Source: JBFLXN01 sp040755715 [NCBI: Candidatus Edwardsbacteria bacterium]
Lineage (GTDB): Bacteria; Edwardsbacteria; AC1; JBFLXN01
NCBI GenBank assembly: GCA_040755715.1
Contig: JBFLXN010000066.1
Coordinates: 1 to 13,562, forward strand
Direction of reading: 5' to 3'
DNA length: 13,562 bases
This document shows positions 2,237 through 13,455 of this stretch, piece by piece (positions within the stretch are counted from its first letter, which is position 1; the number at the start of each line of letters is the position of its first letter). The translations under genes were made by a program, and so were the position numbers. Under the pieces are notes generated by a model, which worked only from the letters and a program-made list of their open reading frames with translations, was not told where the DNA came from and ran no database searches.

Positions 2237-3475
2237 TCATCTGGTGGCAATTTCCCTAATTCCCTTAATAGCATAGAGGATTTCTTCTTCTGTATTGAAT
2301 GGACCGAGTCCAAATCGCACTGTCCCAGTTGGGAAAGTCCCGAGTTGCTCATGGACCAGTGGAGCACAATGTAACCCTGTTCGTGAACATATATTGTAAT
2401 CTATATTGAGCCTGTTACCAACATCAACCGGATTGTAGCCATTGATATCGAAAGATAGAACGGCAATATGGTCTTTTAATGAATCCGCACAATATAGTTT
2501 AACTCCTTTTATTTCTTTAAGTCCTTCACAGAGTAATTTCAGGAGGCTCATTTCTTTTTGGTGAATGTTCTCAAGTCCCTGCTGAGTGATATACTTTTGA
2601 CCCATATACAGACCCGCTACACCCAACATATTAGTAGTACCACATTCTAATCTGTGAGGATATTCTCGGGGTTGAAACCGTTCTTCTGAACTCACACCAG
2701 TTCCACCAAAACGACTGGGTTCAATATCAATCCCTTCTCTAAGATAAAGTCCTCCAATACCCATTGGCCCAAGGAGTGATTTATGACCCGTAAAGGCTAC
2801 AATATCAATATTCATCTCCTTCACATCAATAGGCACTACTCCGGCTGTTTGGGACGCATCTATAGCAAACGCAACAGAATTTTCACGACAGATCTTCCCT
2901 ATTTCCTTCACCGGTTGCACCGTTCCTATTACATTAGAACCGTGATTCATAATAACTAATACCGTAGTCTTTTTTATTTTTCTCTCAAACTCATCAGGAT
3001 GGACAAACCCGTTTTTGTCAAATGGAACATAATCTACCTCAATACTTTTCTCTCTAGCTAGATGATGTAGAGGACGAATAACAGAGTTATGTTCAAGATT
3101 GGTGGTAATTACATGGCTACCCTCCTTAACAATGCCATTTATTATCATATTTAGAGAATCAGTGGCATTATAGGTAAAAACCAAGCGACTGGCATCTGAA
3201 CCTCCTAAAAAATTTGTGAGTGATTGACGGGTTTTAGAAAGCAATTTTCCCGCTTCTTTAGAAGCATCACATTCTGACCGTCCAGGACTCACCCCACAGG
3301 TTTTGAAAAAAGTATACATAAAATCATATACTTCTGATGGTTTTGGGTAAGTAGTAGAGGCGTTGTCCAGATAAACAAAATTCTCTATCTCAAATTCTTT
3401 ATCTAGATTATTTCCCTCTTTTAGTTTGTAGGCGATACCCATTTCTGGATCGCGATAATATTTTTCTTTAATCAT
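2237..3475 (-). CDS. Cysteine desulfurase family protein (class V aminotransferase fold)
   Basis: This 412-residue PLP enzyme should take sulfur from cysteine, leaving alanine, and pass it as persulfide to Fe-S or other sulfur carriers. The fold starts at YLDNASTTYPKP (35-46). LEHNS holds the PLP-stacking His129, Asp206 and Gln209 contact PLP, and FTGHKS carries the Schiff-base Lys232. The mobile-loop catalytic Cys370 lies in SRTGLHCAP. The architecture matches the group often annotated as 'cysteine desulfurase family protein' more than housekeeping IscS. A roughly 33-residue charged N-terminal extension precedes the fold, which is longer than usual. The ATG at 3475 has AGAGGA five bases upstream, supporting this start. 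It stands apart from the metal-cluster genes upstream but could be their sulfur source. Confidence 0.92.
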   Translation of the reverse strand: MIKEKYYRDPEMGIAYKLKEGNNLDKEFEIENFVYLDNASTTYPKPSEVYDFMYTFFKTCGVSPGRSECDASKEAGKLLSKTRQSLTNFLGGSDASRLVFTYNATDSLNMIINGIVKEGSHVITTNLEHNSVIRPLHHLAREKSIEVDYVPFDKNGFVHPDEFERKIKKTTVLVIMNHGSNVIGTVQPVKEIGKICRENSVAFAIDASQTAGVVPIDVKEMNIDIVAFTGHKSLLGPMGIGGLYLREGIDIEPSRFGGTGVSSEERFQPREYPHRLECGTTNMLGVAGLYMGQKYITQQGLENIHQKEMSLLKLLCEGLKEIKGVKLYCADSLKDHIAVLSFDINGYNPVDVGNRLNIDYNICSRTGLHCAPLVHEQLGTFPTGTVRFGLGPFNTEEEILYAIKGIREIATR

Positions 3476-3926: not shown

Positions 3927-4607
3927 TTATTTCGTTGCCTTGACCACTACGAATGAACCTTCACCATAACCTTCTTTTACTGACTCAATGTCTCGTATCT
4001 CGGCTAAAGGGCGAAAGAGAGTTTGCCTAAAATCGAAATCTGTAAAGCCAGCATTCTTGAGGTAAGCAACAACCTCTTCCACCGAATAGAAGGTTGCGTC
4101 TCGGTAAAACACATTGTCATTCTTCTTCTGCTGATATAACCTTCCCATTGGACTGTTCGCATTGATAAAGCCGATGATGATATTTCCACCGGATTTCAGC
4201 ACTCTGTGTATTTCCTTGAGGGCTGTTTCAATATCATCCAGAAAGCAAAGGGTAGTAACCATTAAGACGAAATCAAACTGCGAATCACCAAAAGGAATCG
4301 CTTCAGCCACACCATCTATGACCTCAATCCCCCTCCTTTGGGCTATTTTCCTCATCTCTTTAGATGGATCAAGCCCAAGTCTGATTCCAAGTGGAGCCGC
4401 AAAACGACCACTTCCCACGCCGATTTCGATCCCGTTTTCACTCTCAGGTAATAATTTCTTTATTGCCTGAAGTTCCGACTGATAGGCAAACTTGTTTCTC
4501 TCAAACCATTCTTCATACTGGCTGGCGTGTTTTTCAAAGGGCTCTGTTTTAGGCATAACACTGTGTTTGATGCTCTTTCTGATATTGCTCTTAACGCTCG
4601 TGTTCAT
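3927..4607 (-). CDS. Class I SAM-dependent methyltransferase
   Basis: A Rossmann-fold methyltransferase of the UbiE/Methyltransf_11 type. The SAM-binding motif I is GIEIGVGSG (59-67), followed by LGLDPS (acidic end of beta2), AEAIPF (motif II region) and VLKSGGNIII (motif III region). The frame opens at 4607, overlapping the previous gene by 17 bp. An internal ATG at 4556 (Met18, MPKTEPFEKHASQYEEWF) matches where family members usually begin, though no clear ribosome site precedes either start. Translation is probably coupled to the NifX-like gene upstream. Such genes recur beside NifX-like proteins in anaerobes; the methyl acceptor is unknown. Confidence 0.85.
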   Translation of the reverse strand: MNTSVKSNIRKSIKHSVMPKTEPFEKHASQYEEWFERNKFAYQSELQAIKKLLPESENGIEIGVGSGRFAAPLGIRLGLDPSKEMRKIAQRRGIEVIDGVAEAIPFGDSQFDFVLMVTTLCFLDDIETALKEIHRVLKSGGNIIIGFINANSPMGRLYQQKKNDNVFYRDATFYSVEEVVAYLKNAGFTDFDFRQTLFRPLAEIRDIESVKEGYGEGSFVVVKATK

Positions 4608-4974
4608 GCGAGCAACTGCGCTCAGGATGGTTTGTTAGTCCTCCTTGCACATATAAGTCAAAGGTTCTTCGCACATCCGTTTCATCCGTCACAAAGACCT
4701 CAATCCCGGCATTCTTCAAATCATCGTAAATCCTTCTGCCCATGCCGTGAGAAATAGCTGCTTTGCAGTCCGAAAGAGCAGAAACAATTGGTCCATGTCG
4801 GTCAACTCCATGACCTGCACCTTCTAATCCCCCTGCATGTCCGGTGAAAGTATTAGGGCGATATTCTTGATTCTTTACCTCCCTACCTTCCACCTCAAAG
4901 ACTACAAATCCCCTTGTCCTTCCAAAATGGGAAGATATAGTCTTCTCATCATCTGATGCGATGGCTATTTTCAT
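4591..4974 (-). CDS. NifX/ORP-like dinitrogenase Fe-Mo cofactor family protein
   Basis: This 127-residue protein has the RNase H-like fold of the NifX/NifY/orange-protein family, whose members hold or carry metal-sulfur clusters. Visible features are MKIAIASDD, the family's SSHFGRTRGF motif, the GHG/GPIV segment, then ISHGMGRRIYDDLKNAGIEVF. The tail is Cys/His-rich (CSHEHER), a possible extra metal site. A strong ribosome site (AGGAGAGGAA) precedes the ATG, which overlaps the stop of the coiled-coil gene by 4 bp. With no nitrogenase genes nearby, a cluster carrier unrelated to nitrogen fixation is more likely. Confidence 0.88.
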   Translation of the reverse strand: MKIAIASDDEKTISSHFGRTRGFVVFEVEGREVKNQEYRPNTFTGHAGGLEGAGHGVDRHGPIVSALSDCKAAISHGMGRRIYDDLKNAGIEVFVTDETDVRRTFDLYVQGGLTNHPERSCSHEHER

Positions 4975-5273
4975 GATTTCCTCTCCTTTGTTTTAAGGTG
5001 CTCCTCTAACTCCTTTATTCTCTTCTCCAAATCTGCCTTTTCTGCCCTCAGCTGATTAACCTCCGCTTCCGCGTCTTCCGTGGCAATGGTTTGTGTAGCA
5101 TCACGGAGAAAAAGTTGCGATGCGTGGACGACCGTGCCGCTTTTGTCCTGATAAAATGCATCTGGCCCAGAACCACACCGGCAGGGTCCAATGTAGGTAT
5201 ATCCTTCCGGCGCACTCACTGGCGCATACGGCCAAAATCTCCCTCTATGTATTCCTCTTCCATATCCGAACAT
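4971..5273 (-). CDS. Small Gly/Arg-start, Cys-containing protein with C-terminal coiled coil
   Basis: This 100-residue protein begins with an aromatic/Gly/Arg stretch (MFGYGRGIHRGRFWPY). It then has YIGPCRCGSGPDAFY with Cys31 and Cys33, and ends in a clear coiled coil (about residues 70-96, EVNQLRAEKADLEKRIKELE). The plan resembles DUF5320-type proteins that accompany NifX-like genes, but the CxC segment differs from those I know. The ribosome site AGGAGGT lies 9 bases before the ATG. Its stop overlaps the NifX-like start (ATGA), which strongly suggests that the two proteins act together. The coiled coil may mediate dimerisation or docking, and the CxC could bind a metal. Confidence 0.75.
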   Translation of the reverse strand: MFGYGRGIHRGRFWPYAPVSAPEGYTYIGPCRCGSGPDAFYQDKSGTVVHASQLFLRDATQTIATEDAEAEVNQLRAEKADLEKRIKELEEHLKTKERKS

Positions 5274-5313
5274 GTTTGATTACCTCCTTTCTGATTATCT
5301 TTGGCTTGAATTT

Positions 5314-6141
5314 TCAAACTTCCTTTCTGGTTTCCTCATATTCTTTCTCTATCTTTTCCACAATCTGCTTGAATGCCTTCACCACAGGTGAATCGTCTTG
5401 TGAAAGGATGAATGGTATTCCCTTGTCTCCCTCCTCCACAATCCCGGGATCTATCGGGATTTGGCCGAGAAATGGGATGGAGAAATCTGAAGCGGCTTTC
5501 TCCCCTCCACCGGTTTTGAAAAGATTTATCTTATTGCCACAGTGGGGACAGGTCAAGCCACTCATATTTTCTACTATACCGACGATTTTCATCTTCAGGG
5601 TTTTAGCGAAATTTATGCTTTTGCGGACGCTCAAAAGTGCTACATCCTGCGGAGTCGTAACTATTATGGCATCACTTTGTGGCATCAACTGAGCAACGCT
5701 GAGTGGTTCGTCTCCTGTTCCTGGAGGAAGGTCAACGATAAGGTAGTCCAGATCACCCCAATTCACCTCCTCCAAAAATTGACGAATGATACCCATTTTA
5801 AGCGGACCCCTCCATATCACGGGAGCATCATCTTCACGAAGCAGGAAACCTATAGACATCACTATGAGATTTGGCATGGCAAAAACCGGTAAAAGGCCAT
5901 CATCTTCCCTTGTTATTTTTCTACCTCCCAAGCCAAGCATTTTAGGTATACTGGGTCCATGAATATCCACATCTAACAGACCAACTTCATAACCTTTTAG
6001 AGATAATGCGATAGCAAGATTTGAAGCCACTGTGCTTTTCCCCACACCTCCTTTACCACTCATCACCACCAAACGGTGTTTTATCCCTTCTAGATTTTTT
6101 GCCGCTTCAATGCCAGGTTTATGTTCTGTCTGCATCTTCAT
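5314..6141 (-). CDS. mrp: Mrp/NBP35-family Fe-S cluster carrier ATPase
   Basis: A 275-residue deviant P-loop ATPase. The Walker A is SGKGGVGKST (28-37). DVDIHGPS (57-64) and DLPPGTGDE (137-145) are hallmark motifs, and Cys198/Cys201 in TCPHCG form the CxxC that bridges a 4Fe-4S cluster between two subunits. The protein delivers Fe-S clusters to apoproteins in the cytoplasm. There is no N-terminal DUF59 domain, as is common in anaerobes and archaea. The AAGGA site fits the third codon (also ATG, 6135) better than the first. A 149-bp gap with no recognisable gene separates it from the radical SAM gene upstream. In Desulfovibrio an Mrp gene lies in the orange-protein cluster, which matches the neighbours here. 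Confidence 0.92.
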   Translation of the reverse strand: MKMQTEHKPGIEAAKNLEGIKHRLVVMSGKGGVGKSTVASNLAIALSLKGYEVGLLDVDIHGPSIPKMLGLGGRKITREDDGLLPVFAMPNLIVMSIGFLLREDDAPVIWRGPLKMGIIRQFLEEVNWGDLDYLIVDLPPGTGDEPLSVAQLMPQSDAIIVTTPQDVALLSVRKSINFAKTLKMKIVGIVENMSGLTCPHCGNKINLFKTGGGEKAASDFSIPFLGQIPIDPGIVEEGDKGIPFILSQDDSPVVKAFKQIVEKIEKEYEETRKEV

Positions 6142-6290
6142 AGTTCCTTAATATTAGTTTTTCGCCACCCCTCCACTTTTTTGACTCCTGCCTCCATCTC
6201 CTTGTCTATCCGATGGACCAATAAGTGTTATCATTTATACCGGAGACCAGGCAAGAACAAGAACTGCAAGGTTGGCTCTTTTTTCTTTCA

Positions 6291-7226
6291 TCATGCGATA
6301 ATAAAATATACCCCTAACTCGTCTCTAATTTTTGCTCTTTTGATTTTTTTCTTTTCTTCCAGAATTTGGAGATACTTGGCAATCTCATTGTGATGAACGC
6401 CTAAAGAGACTGTTATCTCTTCACCTCTGGTGGGTCTTCTTTTTAAAAGCTCAATTATGGCCTGCTCCAGATCCTTTTGGTAAGCCTTACTCGTTTCTCT
6501 CTTGAAATTGGCGATCACATCCACTTTTAATTTTGGATCAAAGAGACCTTTGACTTTGTTTAGTTCCTCTTGATTCAATGGATTTGCACCTGGTTCACCC
6601 GGAGGTCGAACCACCGTATTGAGCTGAATTTCATCTACCCTCAGGTCCTTTACAAACCTGTTGATCTTACTGATTTCCCTTTCAGAATCATTGACGCCTT
6701 TAACCAACATAATCTCCAGATAGATTTTCCCCTTGAATCCTTTGCAGAACTCTTTTATTCCCTCAAGGATCTTCTTAACCTTCAATCCTTCAATGGCACG
6801 ATTCACTTTTTGAAAGATTTCTTCAGAAACCGCGTCTGCGGAGGGGATAATCAAGTCTGCCTGAGCCAGATCCTCCCTAACCGTCTTATCCCATAACAAG
6901 GATCCATTGGTCAACACCGCCACCGGAATTTGAGTAAGGCTTTTTACTCTTCCTATCATTTCTCCAATATCTTGATTTAATGTGGGCTCACCTGAGCCGG
7001 AGAATGTTATGTAATCAATGTCGCTGTTTTTGTCTATCACTTCCTTTATCTCTTTTATCATGGAGTCAACTGAGACAAAAGATTCCCTCTGTTTAGTTTG
7101 ATTTGTGGTTTTCCCTAACTGGCAGTAAACGCAATCATAGCTGCAGGTCTTATAAGGTATGATGTCCACTCCCAGAGAAATCCCCAATCTCCGTGAGGGA
7201 ACTGGTCCATAGATCATTCTGCTCAT
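6291..7226 (-). CDS. Radical SAM protein of the COG0731-like group
   Basis: This 311-residue enzyme binds a 4Fe-4S cluster through Cys28, Cys32 and Cys35 (CSYDCVYC) and SAM through the GSGEP motif (77-81). The start YGPVPSRRLGISLG is diagnostic of the Fe-S oxidoreductase group related to the TYW1 catalytic core. The last ~65 residues look like a winged-helix or helical domain (RRPTRGEEITVSLGVHHNEI). The ATG overlaps the stop of the upstream MinD-type ATPase by 4 bp, with AGGA eight bases upstream. The coupling suggests a role with the ATPase, perhaps in cluster or protein modification. The substrate is unknown; a TYW1 role is unlikely because the flavodoxin and wybutosine context is missing. 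Confidence 0.88.
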   Translation of the reverse strand: MSRMIYGPVPSRRLGISLGVDIIPYKTCSYDCVYCQLGKTTNQTKQRESFVSVDSMIKEIKEVIDKNSDIDYITFSGSGEPTLNQDIGEMIGRVKSLTQIPVAVLTNGSLLWDKTVREDLAQADLIIPSADAVSEEIFQKVNRAIEGLKVKKILEGIKEFCKGFKGKIYLEIMLVKGVNDSEREISKINRFVKDLRVDEIQLNTVVRPPGEPGANPLNQEELNKVKGLFDPKLKVDVIANFKRETSKAYQKDLEQAIIELLKRRPTRGEEITVSLGVHHNEIAKYLQILEEKKKIKRAKIRDELGVYFIIA

Positions 7227-8095
7227 TTTCTTATCCTAGCGGAGATATTTTCCCAGATATCTTGGATCCTTTCCACCAGATCGGGATGTCCGTAGTCTAT
7301 GATCGTTTTGCCTTCTACCATGGCTTTGGTAAAGGTGTGGTCAAAGGGAATCTTCCCAACGATCTGGATGTTTTCTCCTTCGCAGAATTTTTCAATTTTT
7401 TCGGTGTTTTCTAAATTTATATCATATTTGTTAATTAAAACCACTGGCTCTATTTTAAAATGGCGGGCAAGATTCAACACCCTCTCCAAGTCGGAAATAG
7501 CTGAAAGGGTTGGTTCAGTAACCGCTGTCACCAGATCTACTCCTGTTATGGAGGCAATGACCGGGCACCCGATACCCGGCGGACCATCCACGATCACCAA
7601 ATTCAAACTATCTTTATCGGCGATTAGTCTGGCGTTTTGTCTCACCTCACTAACCAATTTCCCGGAATTTTCCTCCGCGATTCCCAACTTGGCATGGACC
7701 ATGGGGCCATGTTTTGTATTCGAAATATACCATTCCCCACAAAGGTTTTCTTCCATTTGGATGGCTTGAACCGGACAGATCAGGGTACAAACGCCGCAGC
7801 CTTCGCAGGCAATGGGGTCGATTGTTATTTGGTTTTCCTTCTGGCTGATGGCATCGAATCTGCAAACCTCCACGCACCTGCCGCAATTTGTGCACAGTTT
7901 TTCATTCAGTATTGCTTTCATTCCCCCTTTAAATTCATGCGTTTCTTTTATCGCAGGATGGAGCAGAAGATGAAGGTCGGCAGCATCCACATCACAGTCA
8001 GCCAATACCTTGTCTTGGGCTAAAGCCGCAAAGGATGCGGTGATAACGGTCTTACCGGTGCCGCCCTTTCCACTGATCACAGTTATTTGCTTCAT
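7223..8095 (-). CDS. MinD-superfamily ATPase with inserted 2x[4Fe-4S] ferredoxin domain (first of two)
   Basis: A 290-residue deviant Walker ATPase beginning ISGKGGTGKT (7-16) with DCDVDAADLH as the switch-like motif. A ferredoxin domain is inserted after the first strands: Cys68/71/74/78 and Cys97/100/103/107 hold two 4Fe-4S clusters. VIVDGPPGIGCPV is the Walker B region. This is the COG1149 type. In Desulfovibrio, paired proteins of this kind are encoded with the orange protein. ATP hydrolysis may be coupled to electron transfer or cluster transfer. It overlaps the radical SAM gene by ATGA and is separated from the thioredoxin gene by 56 bp. Confidence 0.92.
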   Translation of the reverse strand: MKQITVISGKGGTGKTVITASFAALAQDKVLADCDVDAADLHLLLHPAIKETHEFKGGMKAILNEKLCTNCGRCVEVCRFDAISQKENQITIDPIACEGCGVCTLICPVQAIQMEENLCGEWYISNTKHGPMVHAKLGIAEENSGKLVSEVRQNARLIADKDSLNLVIVDGPPGIGCPVIASITGVDLVTAVTEPTLSAISDLERVLNLARHFKIEPVVLINKYDINLENTEKIEKFCEGENIQIVGKIPFDHTFTKAMVEGKTIIDYGHPDLVERIQDIWENISARIRK

Positions 8096-8151
8096 CTCTT
8101 TTCCACGCCCGCTTGGCTTTGAATAACTTGTTCGATATTATAAAGACATAA

Positions 8152-8442
8152 CTAACGGTATGATCTAGCCAGGTTGTCCAGTTTCGCTCGCAAGGGCTTC
8201 AATGGCAAAAGCCCCACGATCCGATCCACGGGTCTTCCCTTTTTGAATAGGATCACCGTGGGGATGTTTTGCACTCGATATTGCATGGCAGTTTCGGGAT
8301 TCTGATCCACGTTTAACTTAAAAATGTGCACCCGTCCCGCATAATCCGGACCAATCTCATCCAAAAGTCCCCCCATAACCTGACAGGGTGGACATCGAGG
8401 TGACCAGAAATCCACCACTACCGGAATATCAGATTCAAGCAC
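8152..8442 (-). CDS. Thioredoxin-like protein with CPPC active site; N-terminus behind an in-frame TGA
   Basis: The readable part is 96 residues from a GTG at 8442: IPVVVDFWSPRCPPC carries the redox pair Cys17/Cys20, and NIPTV has the cis-proline (Pro61). Ordinary thioredoxin has WCGPC; here the residues are RCPPC, which should shift redox potential and partner choice. Thioredoxins normally start about 25 residues earlier. That missing part is present upstream in the same frame, from an ATG at 8526 with an AGGAG site, but is interrupted by TGA at 8458-8460. Starting at the GTG, which has GAGAGG almost abutting it, would lose the first strand and helix. The gene is therefore a nonsense mutant, uses an internal restart, or is recoded. 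Confidence 0.75.
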   Translation of the reverse strand: MLESDIPVVVDFWSPRCPPCQVMGGLLDEIGPDYAGRVHIFKLNVDQNPETAMQYRVQNIPTVILFKKGRPVDRIVGLLPLKPLRAKLDNLARSYR

Positions 8443-8526
8443 TTCCTCTCGAAAGAATCAATCCGCTACAGGACGAGGCTTGCCGGGTTTCGGTGGCCGG
8501 TGGAATAAGTTCTTTAAAAATCCCAT
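8443..8526 (-). other. Upstream in-frame part of the thioredoxin gene, interrupted by TGA
   Basis: From the ATG at 8526 the frame reads MGFLKNLFHRPPKPGKPRPV-AD, then TGA (codon 23), then FFREEV running directly into the thioredoxin body. The part after the proline-rich linker matches the usual thioredoxin start (VTDxNFEEEVL). The ribosome site AGGAG lies about 12 bases before the ATG. The frame is intact on both sides, so one base substitution would restore a normal gene of about 124 codons. Confidence 0.65.
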
Positions 8527-8611
8527 CTCTTTTTAACTCCTGCATTCAAAGTGAAGCTATTATCAACGGAATTATGAGAGCTCACACTTGGCGTAAGGAG
8601 CAATAAGTAAC

Positions 8612-9466
8612 TTAAATCCCTTTGGCTTTTTGCGAAATAAAATTCCACAGATCTCGAAAGCTCTTTCGGTAACGCTCCCCATTTATCCACATGGGAATGC
8701 CATAGGAGTAAAGGACTGCAACATCTCTATCATAAGATATCTCAGCCATTATAGGCACCTCCTCTTTTTGACAATAAACTTTGACCCCTCCATCACCAAT
8801 ACCTGCCCGGTTGATGAGGACGCCATGCTTAATCTCAAGTTTTTTCAAAAGCTCTACTGCCAGTTTAAGATCATGCAGTCCAAAAGGTGTGGGCTCGGTT
8901 ACCAGCAGGCAAAAATCGCTTCCTTTTATTGATTCAATCACGGAACAAGAGGTTCCCGGAGGGACATCAATGAGAGTAATTCCATCAGAGTTTATAATCT
9001 TCTTCACCGCCCGGATCAGAGGGGTAGCCATAGGCTCACCGATATTGAGTCGCCCTTGAACAAACTTTATTGAACCTACCCTTCCCTCCTCTAAGACCCC
9101 TATTGGTCTTTCCTTCTCACTTATGGCATGCTCTGGACAAAGCAAACTGCAACCTCCGCATCCGTGGCAAAGCTCTGGAAAAGTAAGCACTTCTTTTTTC
9201 AAAACCACAATCGCATTATAGGCACAGACCTTAGCACATTCTCCACAGAAAGTGCATTTCTTCTGGTCAACATCGGGGACAAGCAGGCTTATCGGTCGGC
9301 TTCTCTCTATCTTTGGTTTTAAAAAAATATGGGAGTTGGGTTCCTCCACATCACAGTCCAGAAACAGGATATCTTGCATCCTTTCGGCAGACAAGAAAAG
9401 TGCAAGATTGGTGGCAACGGTTGTCTTACCAGTTCCTCCTTTCCCACTGGCAACAGAGATTATCAT
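8612..9466 (-). CDS. MinD-superfamily ATPase with inserted 2x[4Fe-4S] ferredoxin domain (second of two)
   Basis: Second member of the pair, 284 residues from the ATG at 9466. ASGKGGTGKTT (6-16) is the deviant Walker A and LDCDVEEPNSH follows. The inserted ferredoxin uses Cys71/74/77/81 and Cys100/103/106/110, and LIDVPPGTSCSV is the Walker B region. I chose ATG 9466 over a TTG at 9481 because GAGGG sits about 7 bases upstream and the protein then begins right at the P-loop. Its ribosome site lies at the end of the ferredoxin gene, so the two are tightly coupled. Compared with the first ATPase it has EEP in place of AAD after the DCDV motif, as expected for two different subunits of a heterodimer. 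Confidence 0.92.
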   Translation of the reverse strand: MIISVASGKGGTGKTTVATNLALFLSAERMQDILFLDCDVEEPNSHIFLKPKIERSRPISLLVPDVDQKKCTFCGECAKVCAYNAIVVLKKEVLTFPELCHGCGGCSLLCPEHAISEKERPIGVLEEGRVGSIKFVQGRLNIGEPMATPLIRAVKKIINSDGITLIDVPPGTSCSVIESIKGSDFCLLVTEPTPFGLHDLKLAVELLKKLEIKHGVLINRAGIGDGGVKVYCQKEEVPIMAEISYDRDVAVLYSYGIPMWINGERYRKSFRDLWNFISQKAKGI

Positions 9467-9477
9467 TATCTTTTCCC

Positions 9478-9906
9478 TCAATATCTAATAGCAATTGCTC
9501 CCTGGGAGCACTCCTTCACACAGGCTAAGCAAGCTGTACATTTGTTTTCATCGATTCTAGCAATCCGATTAACTGAGATGGCACCGACTGGACAGACCTC
9601 ATAACAGATCCCGCAACCAGAGCATTTTCCCTCATCCACAATGGCAACCACTTTGGGACTTTGCGAATCAATGACCTTTTTATCTTCAATGATCTTTTTG
9701 ATAATATTCACTCGTTGGGAGATCCCTTCGACATAGCATCTTAAAAACCTCAATTCCTCATCGGCGCTCAGTTCTGAAGGATCTGTTTTGGCGTTGAGGG
9801 CTTCTATCCTCCTCCAGCCTGTGAATCTGGTGTTTTTCGCTCCCCAAAAGCGGTGTCGGAGATTCTTTCGCACTTTTTTATCCTCGTTTCCTATATATTG
9901 GATCAC
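9478..9906 (-). CDS. Two-cluster [4Fe-4S] ferredoxin with N-terminal helical domain
   Basis: This 142-residue protein has two motifs at its C-terminus: CSGCGICYEVCP (Cys95/98/101/105) and CTACLACVKECS (Cys123/126/129/133). Residues 45-80 look like a helical hairpin or coiled coil (SADEELRFLRCYVEG), similar in plan to DUF5320 proteins. It is a likely electron donor for the MinD-type ATPase encoded immediately downstream. The apparent GTG start at 9906 has no good ribosome site, and a TAG lies directly upstream. The first ~35 basic residues do not match a family I know. A palindrome block begins 10 bases upstream, so the original 5' end may have been replaced. Confidence 0.82.
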   Translation of the reverse strand: MIQYIGNEDKKVRKNLRHRFWGAKNTRFTGWRRIEALNAKTDPSELSADEELRFLRCYVEGISQRVNIIKKIIEDKKVIDSQSPKVVAIVDEGKCSGCGICYEVCPVGAISVNRIARIDENKCTACLACVKECSQGAIAIRY

Positions 9907-10072
9907 CTATCATACCGGCTTATGCGAAGTCCCGCCGAGGCGGGATTTGGGAAACCGAAGTGCAACGAGGTTTTTAGCATAAGCTGAGTTAACCGAGGTC
10001 GACCGTTGGGAGAAGTGCAACATCCCAACGATCTCCAAAGTAGTGAGGAAAGTTTTTGCAAAGATGCTCTAT
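9907..10072. repeat. Cluster of four short stem-loops, two sharing the loop GAAGTGCAAC
   Basis: No gene is present. GCTTATGC (9918-9925) pairs with GCATAAGC (9977-9984), enclosing TCCCGCC/GGCGGGA (9930-9945) and AAACC/GGTTT (9952-9973). Next come the palindrome GGTCGACC (9997-10004) and a perfect 8-bp stem CGTTGGGA/TCCCAACG (10004-10030). The loops of the AAACC and CGTTGGGA stems both begin GAAGTGCAAC (9957-9966 and 10012-10021), although the stems are unrelated. No stem is followed by a T-run on the minus strand, so these are not ordinary terminators. Confidence 0.65.
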
Positions 10073-10414
10073 TCATAAATATTTCACAAATTTATTGTTC
10101 TTATCAACAAGAATATTCTTGGGTTTGATTGGTTTGTCCGTTAATTCAAAACCCATTACAATTATTTCTTCACCAACTTTAATTAAGTAGGAGGTGGCGC
10201 CATTCATACAAATAATCCCAGAGCCTCTTTCACCCACAATAACATAGGTTTCTAACCTGGCACCAGAAGTATTGCTAACTACCAAAACTTTTTCAACAGG
10301 CCAAAAACCGACTTTTTCGATCAAGTCTTCATCAATTGTAATACTTCCAATGTAATTTAAGTTAGCTTCAGTAACCGTAGCTTTGTGAATTTTGGAACGC
10401 AATACCCATCTCAT
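10073..10414 (-). CDS. panD: Aspartate 1-decarboxylase (pyruvoyl enzyme)
   Basis: PanD makes beta-alanine from aspartate for pantothenate and coenzyme A. The sequence is highly typical: LRSKIHKATVTEANLNYIGS, with self-cleavage between Gly23 and Ser24 giving the pyruvoyl group, Lys8 in its usual place, and GARLETYVIVGERGSG and ICMNGA further on. I chose the ATG at 10414 because AGGA lies 7 bases upstream and the protein then starts like other PanDs; a TTG at 10435 in the same frame is less likely. The length, 113 residues, is slightly below the usual ~120-125. It stands alone, with no panB, panC or panE nearby and palindromes on both sides, and is unrelated to the metal-cluster genes. Confidence 0.95.
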   Translation of the reverse strand: MRWVLRSKIHKATVTEANLNYIGSITIDEDLIEKVGFWPVEKVLVVSNTSGARLETYVIVGERGSGIICMNGATSYLIKVGEEIIVMGFELTDKPIKPKNILVDKNNKFVKYL

Positions 10415-10732
10415 AATATTCCTAAATAAAGGCAAGTTAATAAATGTTACGAAAACAGTCTTTCATTGGCGCCCGAGCAAAAATTTGGGTGAGTCCCGAT
10501 GGCTATCGGGAAGAACCTTTTATGCTGTGTTAGACGACACTTTGCCATAAATACCTCTTGTTAGTCTTCGTTTCATTGCTCATCTATTTGCCTCATTGCT
10601 ATTTCAAGCGAAATTTTGTCTAATGCTTTTATAGACCCCGACTCCACCATCAGGGTAAGATCATCAAGCATCGCTCCACCTGTCCACAGCAGGTGGCTCT
10701 CCTCGAACCAGTTGCCACAAGCTTTTATCCGA
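10415..10732. other. Intergenic region with two palindromes and an unassigned short frame
   Basis: Between panD and the SelD fragment I recognise no gene. TCCCGAT/ATCGGGA (10494-10511) is a 7-bp stem with a 4-base loop, and CCACCTG/CAGGTGG (10676-10696) a 7-bp stem with a 7-base loop. A minus-strand frame of about 53 codons ending in TGA at 10573-10575 covers 10573-10731. Its last 32 codons start at an ATG (10668) preceded by GGTGGAG and encode MLDDLTLMVESGSIKALDKI and a short helix. It could be a small protein or a gene tail. Confidence 0.4.
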
Positions 10733-10936
10733 TTACTTTATCACTTGGATTCGGCATTTCTCATCTTCGATTATTTTCCCGATGACCACACTGCCGGAGA
10801 CACCTTTGGAGATCAAACTTCTTAGGAGTTCTGTTTCCTTCTCCTTCGGCACGGAGATGAGCAATCCCCCTGAAGTCTGGGCATCACAGAGGATCGTTTT
10901 TTCTTCATCTGTGATTCTCTCATCCCAAATCCTCAT
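10733..10936 (-). pseudogene. C-terminal fragment of selenophosphate synthase (SelD)
   Basis: This 67-residue frame contains ILCDAQTSGGLLISVPKEK, the signature of the SelD C-terminal (AIRS_C) domain, followed by ELLRSLISKGVSGSVVIG, which also fits. Full SelD is about 330-350 residues; everything before roughly 70 residues from the end is absent, including the catalytic Cys/Sec, the glycine-rich loop and the ATP/Mg residues, so it cannot make selenophosphate. The ATG overlaps the metallo-hydrolase stop by 4 bp, so it may still be translated as a small protein. A remnant left by recombination is the simplest reading. Confidence 0.7.
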
Positions 10937-11724
10937 TGGATTTCGATCATCTTTCCAACTCCTCCGGAAATGAAATCTTCTTTATATTTCTGCTGGAACA
11001 ACTCCCTGGTTTTATCTCCGGAGCAATGGCAGGGGGCAACTTTCTTCACCCCCATTTTTCTAAACTCATATACAATTTTCTCTATCACTTCTTTTGAACT
11101 GCCTAAAAGATGAAATCCACCCATAACCAGATATATATTCTGGTTCAGAAGCTTTTTCGTTTTTTTGACAATATCCACTATTCCTGGATGAGCACAGCCC
11201 GTTATGATCACCAACCCTTTCTCCGTCTTAATGACAAGCGACTGCTCCTTGATGGAGGACCCAAGCTCGCCTGTAGAGAAGACATCCTGGCAGATCTCAA
11301 TTGGTTCTTTAACCTCGATATATTGCGCACCGAGGGCAGTTATCTCTTTTTTGAATGTGGAAGGAAATGAGTGCGGAAGGAAGACCTTTACTTTATGATT
11401 TTTCTTCAGAAATTCCAGAAGACCTCCGGTGTGGTCACCATGTATATGGGAGAGAAAGATCAAATCAACCTGGTCGGGCGTGATTTTGAGTTTTTTCATA
11501 TTGGAGAGCAAAGTTGATCCATCCCCACCCGTGTCGAAAAGGATTGTCTTTTGGGTGCCAATGATAAAACAGGAAAATCCCCATTCAGCCTTAAGCTGAG
11601 GATCAAATTGGTAATTATCGTAGATGATCCTGATGGTTATGGGATTTGCTTTCCTTGGCCAAGCATTAAAAGATAAACTTAAAAGGATCATCGCTAAAGA
11701 ACAAATCTTAATGAGATACTGCAT
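10933..11724 (-). CDS. MBL-fold metallo-hydrolase, probably exported (COG1237-like)
   Basis: A 263-residue metallo-beta-lactamase fold protein. The metal motif is SHIHGDHTGG (His93, His95, Asp97, His98), with further ligands expected in GCAHPGI and GGFHLLG. LFDTGGDGS precedes it, as usual. The layout (RIIYDNYQF at the start, CHCSGD near the end) fits the COG1237 group, sometimes annotated as a dihydropterin ribofuranosylaminobenzene phosphate synthase, although that activity is proven for few members. The first ~25 residues (KICSLAMILLSLSFNAW) form a likely signal peptide, unusual for this mostly cytoplasmic group. No strong ribosome site is seen. It lies 20 bp after the FmdB gene. Confidence 0.85.
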   Translation of the reverse strand: MQYLIKICSLAMILLSLSFNAWPRKANPITIRIIYDNYQFDPQLKAEWGFSCFIIGTQKTILFDTGGDGSTLLSNMKKLKITPDQVDLIFLSHIHGDHTGGLLEFLKKNHKVKVFLPHSFPSTFKKEITALGAQYIEVKEPIEICQDVFSTGELGSSIKEQSLVIKTEKGLVIITGCAHPGIVDIVKKTKKLLNQNIYLVMGGFHLLGSSKEVIEKIVYEFRKMGVKKVAPCHCSGDKTRELFQQKYKEDFISGGVGKMIEIQ

Positions 11725-11744
11725 TTTTCAATTCAGCTTATTCT

Positions 11745-11993
11745 TCACCTATCTCTCCCACAGACTCCATCATCAGAACACGGAGGGGTGGAACAACGTT
11801 CTTCCCGTCCACAGCATGTGGTTCCCTTTGGAGTAGAGCCACCCATAACAATAACGCCCGGAGAAGAGATCATTCTTTTCATTTCAGTTGAACCGCAATC
11901 GGGACAAACAAGTGGCTCATTCTGGGTGAAACCTTTCTGCAGGACCTCGACTACCTTTCTGCAATTTTGACATTGATACTCATATATTGGCAT
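11745..11993 (-). CDS. FmdB-family zinc ribbon protein
   Basis: This 82-residue protein starts MPIYEYQCQNC, the FmdB/CxxC_CxxC_SSSS signature. Cys8/Cys11 and Cys30/Cys33 (CPDC) form the zinc ribbon, followed by STEMKRMISSPG. The tail is longer and Cys-rich (TTCCGREERCSTPPC), which could hold an additional metal. Family members are putative regulators found with formamidase or amidase genes and in many anaerobic operons; their role is not settled. The start is supported by AGGAG 8 bases upstream. Its 5' side carries the array of four stem-loops. Confidence 0.9.
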   Translation of the reverse strand: MPIYEYQCQNCRKVVEVLQKGFTQNEPLVCPDCGSTEMKRMISSPGVIVMGGSTPKGTTCCGREERCSTPPCSDDGVCGRDR

Positions 11994-12000
11994 AAATCAT

Positions 12001-12262
12001 ACTCCTGTTAAATCAAGGTTGGTTCGGGGTGCCCTCATCCCGAACCAGAAATTCGTATGAATGCATTCGCATGTTGCGGGGTAAGGTACCCCGCAACAAC
12101 AATTGAAAGATTTGTAACTGATCAAATCATTTCTCGAAAAAATCTTTTTTCTTCTGCTGGCTGTTGGTCTTTTTGACCAACAGCCTGATAATTTGCTAAA
12201 TCTTTCTGTTGGTGAAGAACACCAACAGAGAGCGAGAACCAAGAATTGCCCAAATCTCGCCT
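12001..12262. repeat. Tandem array of four perfect stem-loops between two small zinc-protein genes
   Basis: Four separate perfect inverted repeats lie in 210 bp: TGGTTCGGG/CCCGAACCA (12020-12047, loop 10); TGTTGCGGGGTA/TACCCCGCAACA (12072-12098, 12-bp stem, loop 3); GGCTGTTGGTC/GACCAACAGCC (12159-12185, 11-bp stem, loop TTTTT); and TCTGTTGGTG/CACCAACAGA (12205-12229, 10-bp stem, loop AAGAA). The last two share the arm CTGTTGGT with different loops. A palindrome GAATGCATTC (12059-12068) and a 6-bp pair GCGAGA/TCTCGC (12232-12260) are also present. No credible gene lies here. In the minus-strand operon the array would be in the 5' leader of the FmdB gene. Confidence 0.8.
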
Positions 12263-12269
12263 TAAGCTT

Positions 12270-12500
12270 CTATTCCCTCATCATTTTACTTCCGCACTTA
12301 GGGCAGGTCATATCATAACATGGTGTCCCTGTTGAATGCGGGACTTTTGCTCCGCAGGAGGGACACACACAATTCCCCATAGGTCCTGCTCCGGGACGGT
12401 TTCCACCCATTCTGCCTCTGCCTGCTCCACGTCCCATTCCCCTACCCCTTCCGGTTCCTGGTCCCCGACCCAAAGGTCCAGTTCCGTTACCTCTTGGCAT
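12270..12500 (-). CDS. Gly/Arg-rich N-terminus plus zinc-ribbon small protein
   Basis: This 76-residue protein has a low-complexity Gly/Arg/Pro first half (MPRGNGTGPLGRGPGTGRGR and on to about residue 42) and a Cys-rich second half: CVCPSCG (Cys44/46/49), Cys61 and CPKCG (Cys66/69), two knuckles of a zinc ribbon. The start resembles the DUF5320-type proteins that accompany NifX-like genes. A GGGAGAG site lies about 8 bases before the ATG. It follows the NifX-like gene by 65 bp in the same direction. It may be a metal- or nucleic-acid-binding accessory; function is unknown. Confidence 0.8.
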   Translation of the reverse strand: MPRGNGTGPLGRGPGTGRGRGMGRGAGRGRMGGNRPGAGPMGNCVCPSCGAKVPHSTGTPCYDMTCPKCGSKMMRE

Positions 12501-12565
12501 TTTTCATCTCTCCCTTCAATGAGTTTCAAAGTCATCCTTAATTCCCATAGAGCACTTAGGAGTGA

Positions 12566-12967
12566 TCAAGCAGGTTCATCGTGGCGGTGATCGGGATGGT
12601 CACATCTGCTCTTCTCTATACCATAACCTCTGCCTGTTCCTGGCTTACACAGACTTTCCCCTCCTTTAAGTGTCCCCGCAATCAGCTTTTCTATCACCTC
12701 GTCCACCCGACCAGCTATTCCCACCAAGGTCTCGATACCTTTCTCCGCAAAGAGAGCTTCAGCCCGTCTTCCCATTCCACCGGCAATGATACAGCTTACC
12801 CCCTTCTCTGAGAGAAAGTGAGGCAGAAATGCCGGTTGATGTCCAGGATTCTCTACCACTTCCTTACTAACAACTTTTTCTTCTTCTATCTCCACAATGG
12901 TAAAGGTTGGACAACGCCCAAAATGAGGAGATACATAATCACCATCTGTCGAAATTGCCACTTTCAT
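12566..12967 (-). CDS. NifX/ORP-like Fe-Mo cofactor family protein with Cys/His tail
   Basis: A 133-residue protein of the NifX/NifB-C-terminal family: MKVAISTDGDYVSPHFGRCP at the start, with an added Cys in the HFGRC motif, then IAGGMGRRAEALFAEKGIETL. The roughly 35-residue tail holds CKPGTGRGYG and CDHPDHRHD, likely metal-binding. AAGGAG lies about 9 bases upstream of the ATG. It is separated by 17 bp from the next NifX-like gene upstream. Three such proteins in one window suggest paralogs with separate carrier and recipient roles. Confidence 0.9.
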   Translation of the reverse strand: MKVAISTDGDYVSPHFGRCPTFTIVEIEEEKVVSKEVVENPGHQPAFLPHFLSEKGVSCIIAGGMGRRAEALFAEKGIETLVGIAGRVDEVIEKLIAGTLKGGESLCKPGTGRGYGIEKSRCDHPDHRHDEPA

Positions 12968-12984
12968 ATGTTCCTACTCCTTAT

Positions 12985-13365
12985 TTAACTTTTCCCACTT
13001 TTCCTTAACCCAAAATGTCCCGGCACAGAGGAATTGGCCGACTCCTTTAGTTTACCGCTCTTATATTCTTCCAATGCCTCTTTGACTGTTCCAGAGTCAA
13101 CCTGATATACTTTTATGTTTGCGGCTTTTAGTGTCTGAAAGGCATTGGGTCCCACATTTCCGGTAATCACCACCTCCACACCTTTATCCGCAATGATTTG
13201 TGCTGCCTGAGGACCGGCACCTCCCGTAGCACCCGAAGCCGGATTGGGAATAGCCTCGATTTTTCTCGCTTCCAGATCGACAATTATGAAATAAAGACAC
13301 CGCCCAAAACGTAAGTCAATAGGGGCATCCAGACTGTCTCCCTGAGATGTTACGGCAACTTTCAC
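12985..13365 (-). CDS. NifX/ORP-like Fe-Mo cofactor family protein, first gene of the right-hand operon
   Basis: This 126-residue protein opens with MKVAVTSQGDSLDAPIDLRF, in which DLRFGRC replaces the SPHFGRC of its neighbour. It continues with NPASGATGGAGPQAAQ, the family's loop before VVITGNVGPNAFQTLKAANIKVY. The DAPIDLRFGR and GPQAAQ form is common in archaeal and thermophile members and in orange-protein-like sequences. The start is GTG with AGGAG 5-6 bases upstream. It leads the operon; the leader upstream contains two hairpins but no clear minus-strand promoter. The tail (FGLRKSGKS) is basic and lacks the Cys/His cluster of the other two. Confidence 0.9.
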   Translation of the reverse strand: MKVAVTSQGDSLDAPIDLRFGRCLYFIIVDLEARKIEAIPNPASGATGGAGPQAAQIIADKGVEVVITGNVGPNAFQTLKAANIKVYQVDSGTVKEALEEYKSGKLKESANSSVPGHFGLRKSGKS

Positions 13366-13392
13366 GTTATCTCCTTTCCCAGATTTAATGGA

Positions 13393-13430
13393 GGAGGGGA
13401 AAGATGACTCTTTCCCCTCCTTTCTTTTTT
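13393..13430 (+). terminator. Intrinsic terminator shape, plus-strand orientation
   Basis: GGAGGGGAAAG (13393-13403) and CTTTCCCCTCC (13410-13420) form a perfect 11-bp stem with a 6-base loop, followed by TTTCTTTTTT (13421-13430). The T-run lies on the plus strand only. No plus-strand gene lies to the left, so it would stop antisense or read-through transcription. On the minus strand it is a strong hairpin in the leader of the first NifX-like gene. Confidence 0.6.
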
Positions 13431-13455
13431 ACTTCTTAAGACTTCTGTAAAATTC

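Follow-up and report, generated by a model that had tools for sequence, protein, structure and literature searches.

Gene content of the locus

The window, the whole 13,562-nucleotide stretch of DNA analyzed here, is Zixibacteria-like, and a Pfam search placed the gene set described earlier on the minus strand, within positions 3927-13365. In agreement with the initial annotation, three NifX-fold proteins, two ferredoxin-MinD ATPases, Mrp, a radical SAM protein, a ferredoxin, a thioredoxin, and a methyltransferase were found on this one strand. The genes named there were thus recovered, but four lying between them had been left unlisted: an FmdB-type zinc ribbon (11745-11993; PF09723, 56.8 bits), an MBL-fold metallo-hydrolase (10933-11724; PF00753, 50.4 bits), a 67-aa C-terminal fragment of SelD (10733-10936; NF002098, 39.4 bits), and an intact aspartate decarboxylase, PanD (10073-10435; PF02261, 131.6 bits). 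The span of 4591-13365 given for the set holds the rest of it, but the class I SAM methyltransferase (3927-4607; PF08241, 72.7 bits) falls outside its start. Beyond the methyltransferase lie a cysteine desulfurase family protein (2237-3475, minus strand; TIGR01977, 456 bits against a cut-off of 377), an ECF substrate subunit, and a cupin. Overlaps of 4 nt were observed at only three junctions (MBL/SelD fragment, MinD2/radical SAM, and Gly/Arg-start protein/NifX3) and overlaps of 17 nt at two (NifX3/methyltransferase and ECF/cupin), while five intergenic gaps of 149-297 nt lie within the array; the description "many ATGA overlaps" was therefore overstated.

Neighboring gene families were counted at 76 loci anchored on MinD2, the second ferredoxin-MinD ATPase. 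The genes are grouped together beyond chance. The zinc ribbon (20/76 loci) and the MBL hydrolase (21/76) are recurrent accessories, and relatives of the N-terminally extended 2x[4Fe-4S] ferredoxin (9478-9906; Fer4, 56.6 bits) occurred at 9 to 10 loci. A NifU_N/IscU scaffold was found at 27 loci, with 25 on the Desulfobacterota side and 1 on the Zixibacteriota side, and a sigma54-activator family at 37; one member of each of these two families was checked in Pfam. The thioredoxin body (8152-8457; CPPC; PF00085, 73.5 bits for the 96-aa form), which has an in-frame TGA directly upstream as judged by eye from the reading frame, had counterparts at 4 loci, the desulfurase at 5, and the methyltransferase at 7 to 8. 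Background neighbors reached similar counts (an ABC ATPase family, 7; a lipoamide-dehydrogenase-like gene, 6; an enolase-like gene, 5). These results indicate that the desulfurase association is not above background and that the tie of the methyltransferase to the module is weak; thioredoxin and methyltransferase, counted earlier as added parts, do not clearly exceed unrelated neighbors. Neither the SelD fragment (model positions 287-345; cut-off, 299 bits) nor panD was labeled at any of the other 75 loci, and a 37.5-bit PanD match was found near the radical SAM gene of locus L029, in a stretch without MinD. The SelD fragment is probably outside the module, and PanD is probably a passenger. 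Iron-uptake genes were seldom neighbors (feoB at 3, fur at 2, and feoA at 1 of the 76 loci).

NifX-fold proteins

NifX1 (12985-13365), a one-domain, Orp8/ORP-like protein, matched PF02579 with 95 bits, NifX2 (12566-12967) with 81.6 bits, and the divergent NifX3 (4591-4974) with 56.3 bits (cut-off, 26.3 bits). When compared with solved structures by phmmer, NifX1 aligned with ORP (2wfb, 7e-21) over residues 2-110 and with 1rdu (4e-25) and 1eo1 (3e-22). NifX2, which carries HFGRC and CDH at its C-terminus, corresponds to positions 265-365 of the NCBIfam MrpORP model (99.9 bits; the cut-off for the whole model is 450 bits), and its closest solved structure is 2yx6 (3e-16). The score of NifX3 against TIGR02663, 31.1 bits, did not reach the cut-off of 112. 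Apart from ORP for NifX1, the closest solved relatives of NifX1-3 are PH0822 (2yx6), 1t3v/1o13, MTH1175 (1eo1), and 1rdu, entries titled hypothetical, conserved hypothetical, or probable NifB protein. NifX was found at 68-69 of the 76 loci and three NifX genes at 26 of them, so that three carriers are not the special feature they had been taken for.

MinD-type ATPases, Mrp, and the Desulfovibrio ORP complex

MinD1 (8612-9481; likely start, 9466), a MinD/ParA ATPase with an inserted 2x[4Fe-4S] ferredoxin, and MinD2 (7223-8095) are CbiA/ParA ATPases with two Fer4 motifs apiece in Pfam. The eight ferredoxin cysteines and KGGTGKT were invariant in the seven MinD2 and six MinD1 sequences aligned, and the two proteins form distinct orthologous groups, each conserved. 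MinD2 was present in 30/98 Zixibacteriota and 72/118 Desulfobacterota genomes, counts that, like all genome counts here, take kindred genomes as independent. The Fe-S carrier Mrp/NBP35 (5314-6141; 275 aa; CPHC; PF10609, 344.8 bits) stands alone in the window, and Mrp was found at 27-37 of the 76 loci.

The MinD pair, the NifX1-ORP match, and the NifX2-MrpORP match bear out the Desulfovibrio ORP complex as the closest precedent. In Desulfovibrio vulgaris Hildenborough, this complex consists of Orp3, Orp4, Orp5, Orp8, and Orp9/MrpORP. Shared with the window are two ferredoxin-MinD ATPases (Orp3/Orp4), each with two [4Fe-4S] motifs, a one-domain ORP/Orp8-like NifX protein, an Mrp ATPase, and an MrpORP-type Di-Nase domain. 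MrpORP is fused in Desulfovibrio, whereas Mrp and the Di-Nase-like NifX2 are separate genes here; since single ORFs at five other loci (L031, L107, L109, L112, and L124) matched both Mrp and NifX, the window carries MrpORP as two pieces. The window also differs in having its genes on a single strand rather than in two divergent operons and in carrying additional radical SAM, DUF5320, MBL, FmdB, and methyltransferase genes. The small [2Fe-2S] protein Orp5 was not recognized in the window, although no Orp5 query sequence was used. The ORP complex has sigma54 promoters and a cognate activator, and a sigma54-activator family adjoins 37/76 related loci; in the window the sigma54 promoter pattern matched 10 times against 9.0 expected by chance, and no activator gene was found inside it, though one could sit past its end.

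DUF5320-type proteins

Two Gly/Arg-start proteins had been described, and both are indeed Gly/Arg-rich, but their relation to DUF5320 differs. DUF5320a (12270-12500; 76 aa, 21 of them Gly; pI 10.5) has a Gly/Arg-rich N-terminus and a cysteine-rich, zinc-ribbon-like C-terminus and scored 23.3 bits against the DUF5320 cut-off of 27. The protein at 4971-5273, with a coiled-coil-like C-terminus, gave no DUF5320 match in Pfam and resembles the family in composition only. Relatives of DUF5320a were found by phmmer at 43 of the 76 loci, a count that biased composition may inflate, and the DUF5320 long form was present at 44-47. Furthermore, DUF5320 was over the cut-off in 29/30 MinD2-positive but in only 1/68 MinD2-negative Zixibacteriota genomes, with 25 of those 29 lying within 10 kb. 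DUF5320 is thus the tightest companion of the NifX/MinD module. NifX-DUF5320 fusions also occur in some Desulfobacterota; all four tested matched both families, three of them over both cut-offs.

IssA, which belongs to the same domain family as NifX, is reported to store thioferrate, with its cationic Gly-rich tail proposed as the binder (PMC5524996). The likeness of Pyrococcus furiosus IssA to the window NifX proteins is one of domain family (IPR003731/PF02579). IssA carries the cationic Gly-rich sequence in its own chain, as a long Gly/aromatic tail of 70 residues, whereas in the window such sequence lies on separate DUF5320-type proteins and the NifX tails are short (24, 37, and 21 residues past the Pfam match in NifX1, NifX2, and NifX3, respectively). 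By motif count, Gly-rich NifX tails were found at 15/69 loci of relatives (four were examined in Pfam), and 11 of these 15 loci also carried the DUF5320 long form (Fisher P = 0.76). A tail on NifX thus does not exclude a separate DUF5320, which weakens a simple model of DUF5320 as the tail in trans.

Radical SAM protein

The radical SAM protein (6291-7226; PF04055, 75.2 bits) contains CX3CX2C and a winged-helix-like C-terminal domain; a FaeA-like match of the protein scored 20.7 bits, equal to the cut-off of 20.7. Its gene was found at 24/76 loci, a count inflated by loci chosen for radical SAM, and at 15/67 when those were removed. Of the genomes with both, 8/16 Zixibacteriota and 9/59 Desulfobacterota had it less than 10 kb away from the two ATPase genes. 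A gene-neighborhood comparison had been proposed as a check, with unconserved neighbors counting against the gene set; the radical SAM gene adjoins the ATPase pair in several phyla, so that this refuting outcome was not seen, and the protein is a recurrent yet optional component of the module.

C28, C32, and C35 of the CX3CX2C motif were invariant in 18/18 relatives. No fourth cysteine column reaching at least 30% was found in the barrel of these 18 aligned relatives, and the sole further column (12/18), in the C-terminal domain, is Thr in the window protein. NifB, which acts in nitrogenase cofactor synthesis, joins a radical SAM and a NifX domain, and the module of the window likewise includes both a radical SAM protein and NifX-fold proteins. 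The further cysteines of NifB serve additional Fe-S clusters of the barrel. Many NifB cysteines are described as highly conserved (PMC5524996), whereas the window family keeps only the three of CX3CX2C. The top structural matches of the predicted model were tied between PFL-activase (Z 18.0) and NifB (Z 17.1). The nearest NCBIfam names, a tungsten-enzyme maturase and MoaA, were both far under cut-off, and the NifB family model was absent among the matches listed at E ≤ 1e-5 (25 of 26 for the window protein and 25 of 35 for the alignment).

Nitrogenase and molybdenum genes in relatives

Thirty-one module-bearing relatives, draft genomes separate from the window's own genome, were searched for nitrogenase and molybdenum genes. 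Nitrogenase (PF00148) was over the cut-off in none of the 31, consistent with the gene set having been described as one without nitrogenase. ModB and WtpA were likewise over cut-off in none, ModA in 1, and MoaC in 7, although molybdenum may enter through other transporters. None of the four was found in G001, G002, G041, and G085, the genomes with the gene order closest to the window. Sub-cut-off ModB matches in 30/31 relatives (best, 74.2 bits against 182.6) were taken to be other ABC permeases. With the same search, ModA was over the cut-off in 55/118 Desulfobacterota genomes, where it occurred in 29/72 MinD2-positive and 26/46 MinD2-negative genomes (two-sided P = 0.09, towards fewer). The WtpA control was over the cut-off in only 2/14 named genomes.

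Proposed function

The comparison bears on how Fe-S clusters are made, kept, and passed on in anaerobes by routes other than ISC, SUF, and NIF, and on what the ORP complex does. The locus is a known anaerobe module, unusually well stocked, and probably serves Fe-S assembly, carrying, or storage. In these comparisons, DUF5320, a Pfam family whose function is unnamed, is tied closely to the NifX/MinD module, and a radical SAM family that lies under all NCBIfam cut-offs shown is a recurrent optional part of it.

We favor, with reasonable though limited confidence, an expanded Zixibacteria-type ORP module for assembling, carrying, and storing all-iron Fe-S clusters in an anaerobe that probably lacks nitrogenase. 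Gene content, orthology, conserved co-location, the NifX-DUF5320 fusion, and the relatives' lack of nitrogenase and few molybdenum genes were computed directly; the biochemical steps of the scheme are all inferred. NifX1 and NifX2 would hold Fe-S species non-covalently or through few ligands, with the Gly/Arg-rich DUF5320 proteins as a cationic partner or scaffold, like the proposed IssA tail. Mrp may bring a [4Fe-4S] cluster and load the ferredoxin domains of both MinD-type ATPases, which would use ATP hydrolysis and low-potential electrons to transfer clusters or to position the complex. Optional auxiliaries would be the radical SAM protein, MBL hydrolase, and zinc ribbon. In Desulfovibrio, the ATPase domain of MrpORP is described as binding a [4Fe-4S] cluster that is then passed to Orp3/Orp4, and the Di-Nase domain apparently holds a 3Fe-4S cluster (PMC6345978). 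In Methanococcus voltae grown on pyrite, two IssA homologues are reported to be up together with FeoB (PMC8516115). Against this reading, iron-uptake genes seldom adjoin the present module, the Desulfovibrio complex was linked to cell division rather than iron storage, NifU_N is nearly confined to Desulfobacterota-side loci, and the window showed no recognized Orp5, no activator gene, and no promoter pattern above chance.

The closest characterized relative of NifX1 also argues against all-iron clusters, since ORP of Desulfovibrio gigas is described as binding S2MoS2CuS2MoS2 (PMC6345978). A sulfide cofactor of that kind with a heterometal (Mo-Cu or other), as favored in the initial annotation, with the extra genes as added steps, would fit this kinship, the nearest names of the radical SAM protein, and the few relatives with ModA or MoaC. 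Yet molybdenum uptake and Moco genes are scarce in module-bearing relatives, and ModA, detectable in Desulfobacterota, has no positive association with MinD2. A molybdenum-containing cofactor is accordingly disfavored; the module persists where recognizable molybdenum genes are few, which makes Mo-Cu improbable as what it usually carries, and we consider a heterometal cofactor unlikely. Less likely still, and very improbable, is a nitrogenase-free, multi-gene counterpart of NifB chemistry, in which NifX1/NifX2 would hold an all-iron sulfide cluster with DUF5320 serving as scaffold, the radical SAM protein would alter this cluster, for example by adding a SAM-derived atom, and the MinD pair would deliver it using ATP, to yield an undescribed cofactor. 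The NifB radical SAM part and NifX are reported as separate genes in some organisms (PMC8351635).

Membership of both ATPases in the MinD family, together with the polar localization of MrpORP and its putative role in Desulfovibrio cell division (PMC6345978), would suit ATPases that chiefly position, with the metal clusters as sensors. This is quite improbable: the commonest neighbors are the metal-sulfur genes NifX, NifU_N, and Mrp and DUF5320, and no division gene was recognized among families in at least four loci (unlabeled ones judged by their first 60 residues). The locus might also be an ordinary small ORP operon split by unrelated insertions, its larger size then lacking functional meaning. 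Several observations point this way: panD and the SelD fragment are labeled at none of the other 75 loci; L002 and L063 have DUF5320a, ferredoxin, and MinD1-MinD2 without MBL, panD, or thioredoxin between; the array has five long gaps and an interrupted thioredoxin frame; and thioredoxin, desulfurase, and methyltransferase are close to background. Because MBL, FmdB, and radical SAM recur in other groups, we regard this as unlikely for the whole window; hot-spot insertion is true of panD and SelD and probably of thioredoxin.

Gene array and relation to the ORP complex

The genes of interest all lie on the minus strand of the window. Family matches identified three NifX-fold (PF02579) proteins, NifX1 (12985-13365), NifX2 (12566-12967), and NifX3 (4591-4974); two ferredoxin-MinD ATPases, MinD1 (8612-9481) and MinD2 (7223-8095); a radical SAM protein (rSAM, 6291-7226); Mrp (5314-6141); a ferredoxin (9478-9906); and DUF5320a (12270-12500), a small Gly/Arg-rich protein. 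They also identified an FmdB-type zinc ribbon (11745-11993), an MBL-fold hydrolase (10933-11724), a 67-aa C-terminal fragment of SelD (10733-10936), PanD (10073-10435), a thioredoxin (8152-8457), a methyltransferase (3927-4607), a cysteine desulfurase (2237-3475), an ECF subunit (969-1559), and a cupin (638-985), and the ORF list added a Gly/Arg-start protein (4971-5273). The genes listed in the initial annotation were thus correct but incomplete, and the "many" ATGA overlaps that it described came down to just three junctions with a 4-nt overlap. No RNA family at the gathering threshold and no tRNA was found in the window.

The Desulfovibrio orange-protein (ORP) complex is described as containing the ATPases Orp3 and Orp4, which carry ferredoxin motifs, together with Orp5, Orp8 (ORP), and Orp9 (MrpORP) (PMC6345978), encoded in two divergent sigma54-driven operons (PMC6345978; PMC3897727). 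MinD1 and MinD2 are the counterparts of Orp3/Orp4, and NifX1 is that of Orp8, matching ORP (2wfb) at 7e-21. MrpORP is a fusion in that complex, whereas Mrp and NifX2 are separate genes in the window. With a score of 99.9 bits, NifX2 aligns to the Di-Nase portion of the MrpORP model, and it partly keeps the motifs CXHFGHCE and CDH named for MrpORP (PMC6345978), as SPHFGRCP, in which Ser replaces the first Cys, and CDH. ORFs matching Mrp and NifX together were found in the loci of five relatives. Upstream of NifX1, matches to the sigma54 promoter pattern were no more frequent than chance. On sequence grounds, we infer that the window cluster is an expanded ORP-type Fe-S module. Nothing closer than PMC6345978 appeared among the matches listed by a literature search with most subscription journals outside its scope; orange protein, radical SAM, and Desulfovibrio occurred together in a DMSO-reductase review.

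A strong hairpin with a 13-bp stem lies directly upstream of the NifX1 start (13360-13450; -28.2 kcal/mol, z -2.87), with equal stability reached in 4 of 200 shuffles; it is possibly an attenuator or terminator. The thioredoxin frame extends upstream to an ATG at 8524-8526 and, as seen by eye, is broken by an in-frame TGA at 8458-8460 (minus strand), for which a premature stop, a sequencing error, and recoding are indistinguishable; GTG at 8442 as the start would give a 96-aa form. The start of the SelD fragment overlaps the MBL gene at an ATGA, and the window's ORF lists showed no upstream part of SelD.

Module content across related loci

We clustered the called proteins located at most 9 kb from MinD2, with no preselection of families, in 76 of 78 loci; two loci (L090 and L099) in which no MinD2 anchor was called were excluded. 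MinD1/MinD2 were present in all 76 loci, NifX in 68, the long form of DUF5320 in 44, and DUF5320a in 42. A sigma54-activator family was found in 37 loci and a NifU_N scaffold in 27, 25 of them on the Desulfobacterota side (one member of each family was confirmed by Pfam). The Mrp count depended on the method (27 loci by clustering vs 37 by label). MBL was present in 21 loci, FmdB in 20, a histidine-kinase-like family in 12, and ferredoxin in 9. The count for rSAM, 24 of 76, is inflated, and fell to 15 of 67 without the nine loci picked for rSAM (the window, L001, L002, L005, L011, L018, L027, L028, and L031).

Three families served as background, an ABC ATPase (7 loci), a lipoamide-dehydrogenase-like family (6), and an enolase-like family (5), all named from a reading of the first 60 residues. 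Because the ABC ATPase reached 7, families at 8 loci or fewer are not clearly above background. DUF89 (8), DUF134 (7), CGGC (7), and TsaA (6) were no higher than background, and no inference was drawn from them. Thioredoxin, cysteine desulfurase, and methyltransferase (4, 5, and 7-8 of 76 loci, respectively) were likewise comparable to background families and are not supported as core parts. The window carried the most labelled families of the 76 loci (15, followed by L005 with 13), but a high rank was bound to follow, since the labels were drawn largely from the window itself.

Related thioredoxins lie close to MinD2 in L092 and L117. In the window, panD is intact within the metal-sulfur array, and this label is absent from the other 75 loci; a weak panD match lies near the rSAM gene of L029, outside the 76 loci. 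A short protein of ~100 aa recurs in eight Zixibacteriota-side loci (L069:1-282 and seven others), sits between NifX1 and DUF5320 in L084, and gave no Pfam match in the single member tested. The Spirochaetales locus (L005:754-12317) combines FeoA, FeoB, and a Fur-like regulator with DUF5320, NifX2, NifX1, MBL, methyltransferase, rSAM, an IscU-like scaffold, DUF89, and a 670-aa ORF hit by each of the two MinD queries. Striking as it is in L005, a Feo/Fur linkage is not general among the 76 loci.

Occurrence of the radical SAM gene beside the ATPases

The rSAM protein shares 75% identity with one from Zixibacteria bacterium SM1_73 (L001) and 69% with one from Candidatus Zixiibacteriota (L002). 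Within the stretch examined, a MinD1/MinD2-type ATPase was present in 8 of 32 loci fetched by the rSAM protein, from Zixibacteria (L001 and L002), Spirochaetales (L005), Acidobacteria (L011), Abyssobacteria (L018), Methanoregulaceae (L027), Syntrophaceae (L028), and Deltaproteobacteria (L031). NifX was also present in six of the eight, the exceptions, L001 and L027, being short contigs. Elsewhere, a MinD2 remnant lay at a contig edge (L013), NifX was found in L023, and Mrp was found in L022 and L025; the remaining rSAM loci, some on short contigs, contained no MinD, NifX, or Mrp.

We then counted both genes in two groups named after L002 and L028, whose genomes centred the searches. Among 98 Zixibacteriota genomes, MinD2 (orthologue at least 349 bits) was found in 30, long-form rSAM (at least 270 bits) in 17, and both in 16, with the two at most 10 kb apart in 8 of the 16. 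Among 118 Desulfobacterota genomes, the numbers were 72 for MinD2 (at least 264 bits), 75 for rSAM (at least 283 bits), and 59 for both, with proximity in 9 of the 59, where roughly 0.7% per genome would be expected; these counts treat related genomes as independent, and draft contigs conceal some links. The 40 Desulfobacterota loci fetched, out of the 72 MinD2-positive genomes, include eight of these nine genomes, the ninth being L028. Left out of the counts were Zixibacteriota rSAM matches below 270 bits; some of these were pieces at contig edges in MinD2-positive genomes (G089, G074, and G112), and one was an additional copy in G060. Desulfobacterota rSAM matches below 283 bits were also left out, as were the A2 matches of G156 and G178, which were partial or at the MinD1 level. 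The short-form rSAM paralogue (137 to 186 bits), used as a control, was near MinD2 in none of 14 genomes, indicating that proximity to MinD2 is specific to the long form.

Of the genomes with both genes, 50 of the 59 from Desulfobacterota and 8 of the 16 from Zixibacteriota had rSAM on another contig or more than 10 kb from MinD2, and 16 Desulfobacterota genomes contained long-form rSAM without MinD2. This frequent occurrence outside the module argues against a tight functional bond with it. The co-occurrence of rSAM with the ATPase pair, proposed in the initial annotation as a point to check, recurs in several groups, but the radical SAM gene is a recurrent yet optional member of the module.

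Predicted structure of the radical SAM protein

The rSAM protein has a CX3CX2C motif and a winged-helix-like C-terminus, and exceeded no NCBIfam cut-off among the matches listed. Its predicted model had a mean pLDDT of 80.3, with residues 24-40 (the cluster loop) below 50. In a VIA-align comparison covering Foldseek's top 1000 chains, the best match was PFL-activase (Z 18.0, rmsd 3.2, 213 residues), tied with NifB (Z 17.1, rmsd 2.8, 197 residues); both matches span residues up to ~240. Foldseek placed NifB first by E-value, with a TM of ~0.5. Only three cysteines were conserved in all 18 aligned rSAM sequences, so NifB-type cluster fusion by rSAM is not supported. Given the structural tie and the absence of extra conserved cysteines, the identification of rSAM as NifB is not supported.

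Metal-related genes in module-bearing relatives

Nitrogenase was found in none of the 31 module-bearing relatives, in agreement with the initial description of the gene set as nitrogenase-free. ModB exceeded its cut-off in none of the 31 (weaker matches in 30, best 74.2 bits vs a cut-off of 182.6), and WtpA was found in none, with the control over cut-off in just 2 of 14. ModA was over cut-off in one relative, with any match in three, and MoaC was present in 7 of 31 (control, 11 of 14). Applied to the 118 Desulfobacterota genomes, the same search gave ModA matches above the cut-off in 55, and ModA was not enriched with MinD2 there (29/72 vs 26/46). The scarcity of Mo genes in the relatives disfavours a Mo-Cu cluster in the module, yet some genes may be missing from draft assemblies, and molybdate may be taken up by other transporters.

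DUF5320 and the tails of NifX proteins

DUF5320 exceeded the Pfam cut-off in 30 of 98 Zixibacteriota genomes, 29 of them among the 30 MinD2-positive ones, G104 and G087 being the exceptions to this pairing. In the 29 genomes, DUF5320 was within 10 kb of MinD2 in 25 and on another contig in 4. In Desulfobacterota, some NifX proteins end in a Gly/Met/Arg-rich, coiled-coil-like tail. By a simple motif, tailed NifX was found in 15 of 69 NifX-bearing loci, none of them among the 29 counted on the Zixibacteriota side. All four tailed proteins tested matched PF02579 followed by DUF5320, the latter scoring 45.5, 40.7, 33.8, and 26.6 bits against a cut-off of 27. Such a fusion points to joint action of NifX and DUF5320. 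A simple replacement of the NifX tail by DUF5320 was ruled out as stated, because tailed NifX and separate DUF5320 co-occur.

The tail of IssA is described as cationic and Gly- and aromatic-rich, and its authors proposed that it binds thioferrate (PMC5524996). By this published description, the DUF5320 and NifX tails resemble it in being cationic and Gly-rich. Within the literature searched, the word DUF5320 itself occurs in work on poplar HSF genes and archaeal G-quadruplexes. In the window and in three Zixibacteriota loci (L063, L064, and L088), the C-terminus of the DUF5320a-type protein has a conserved cysteine-rich pattern, CxCPxCG ... PC ... CPxCG.
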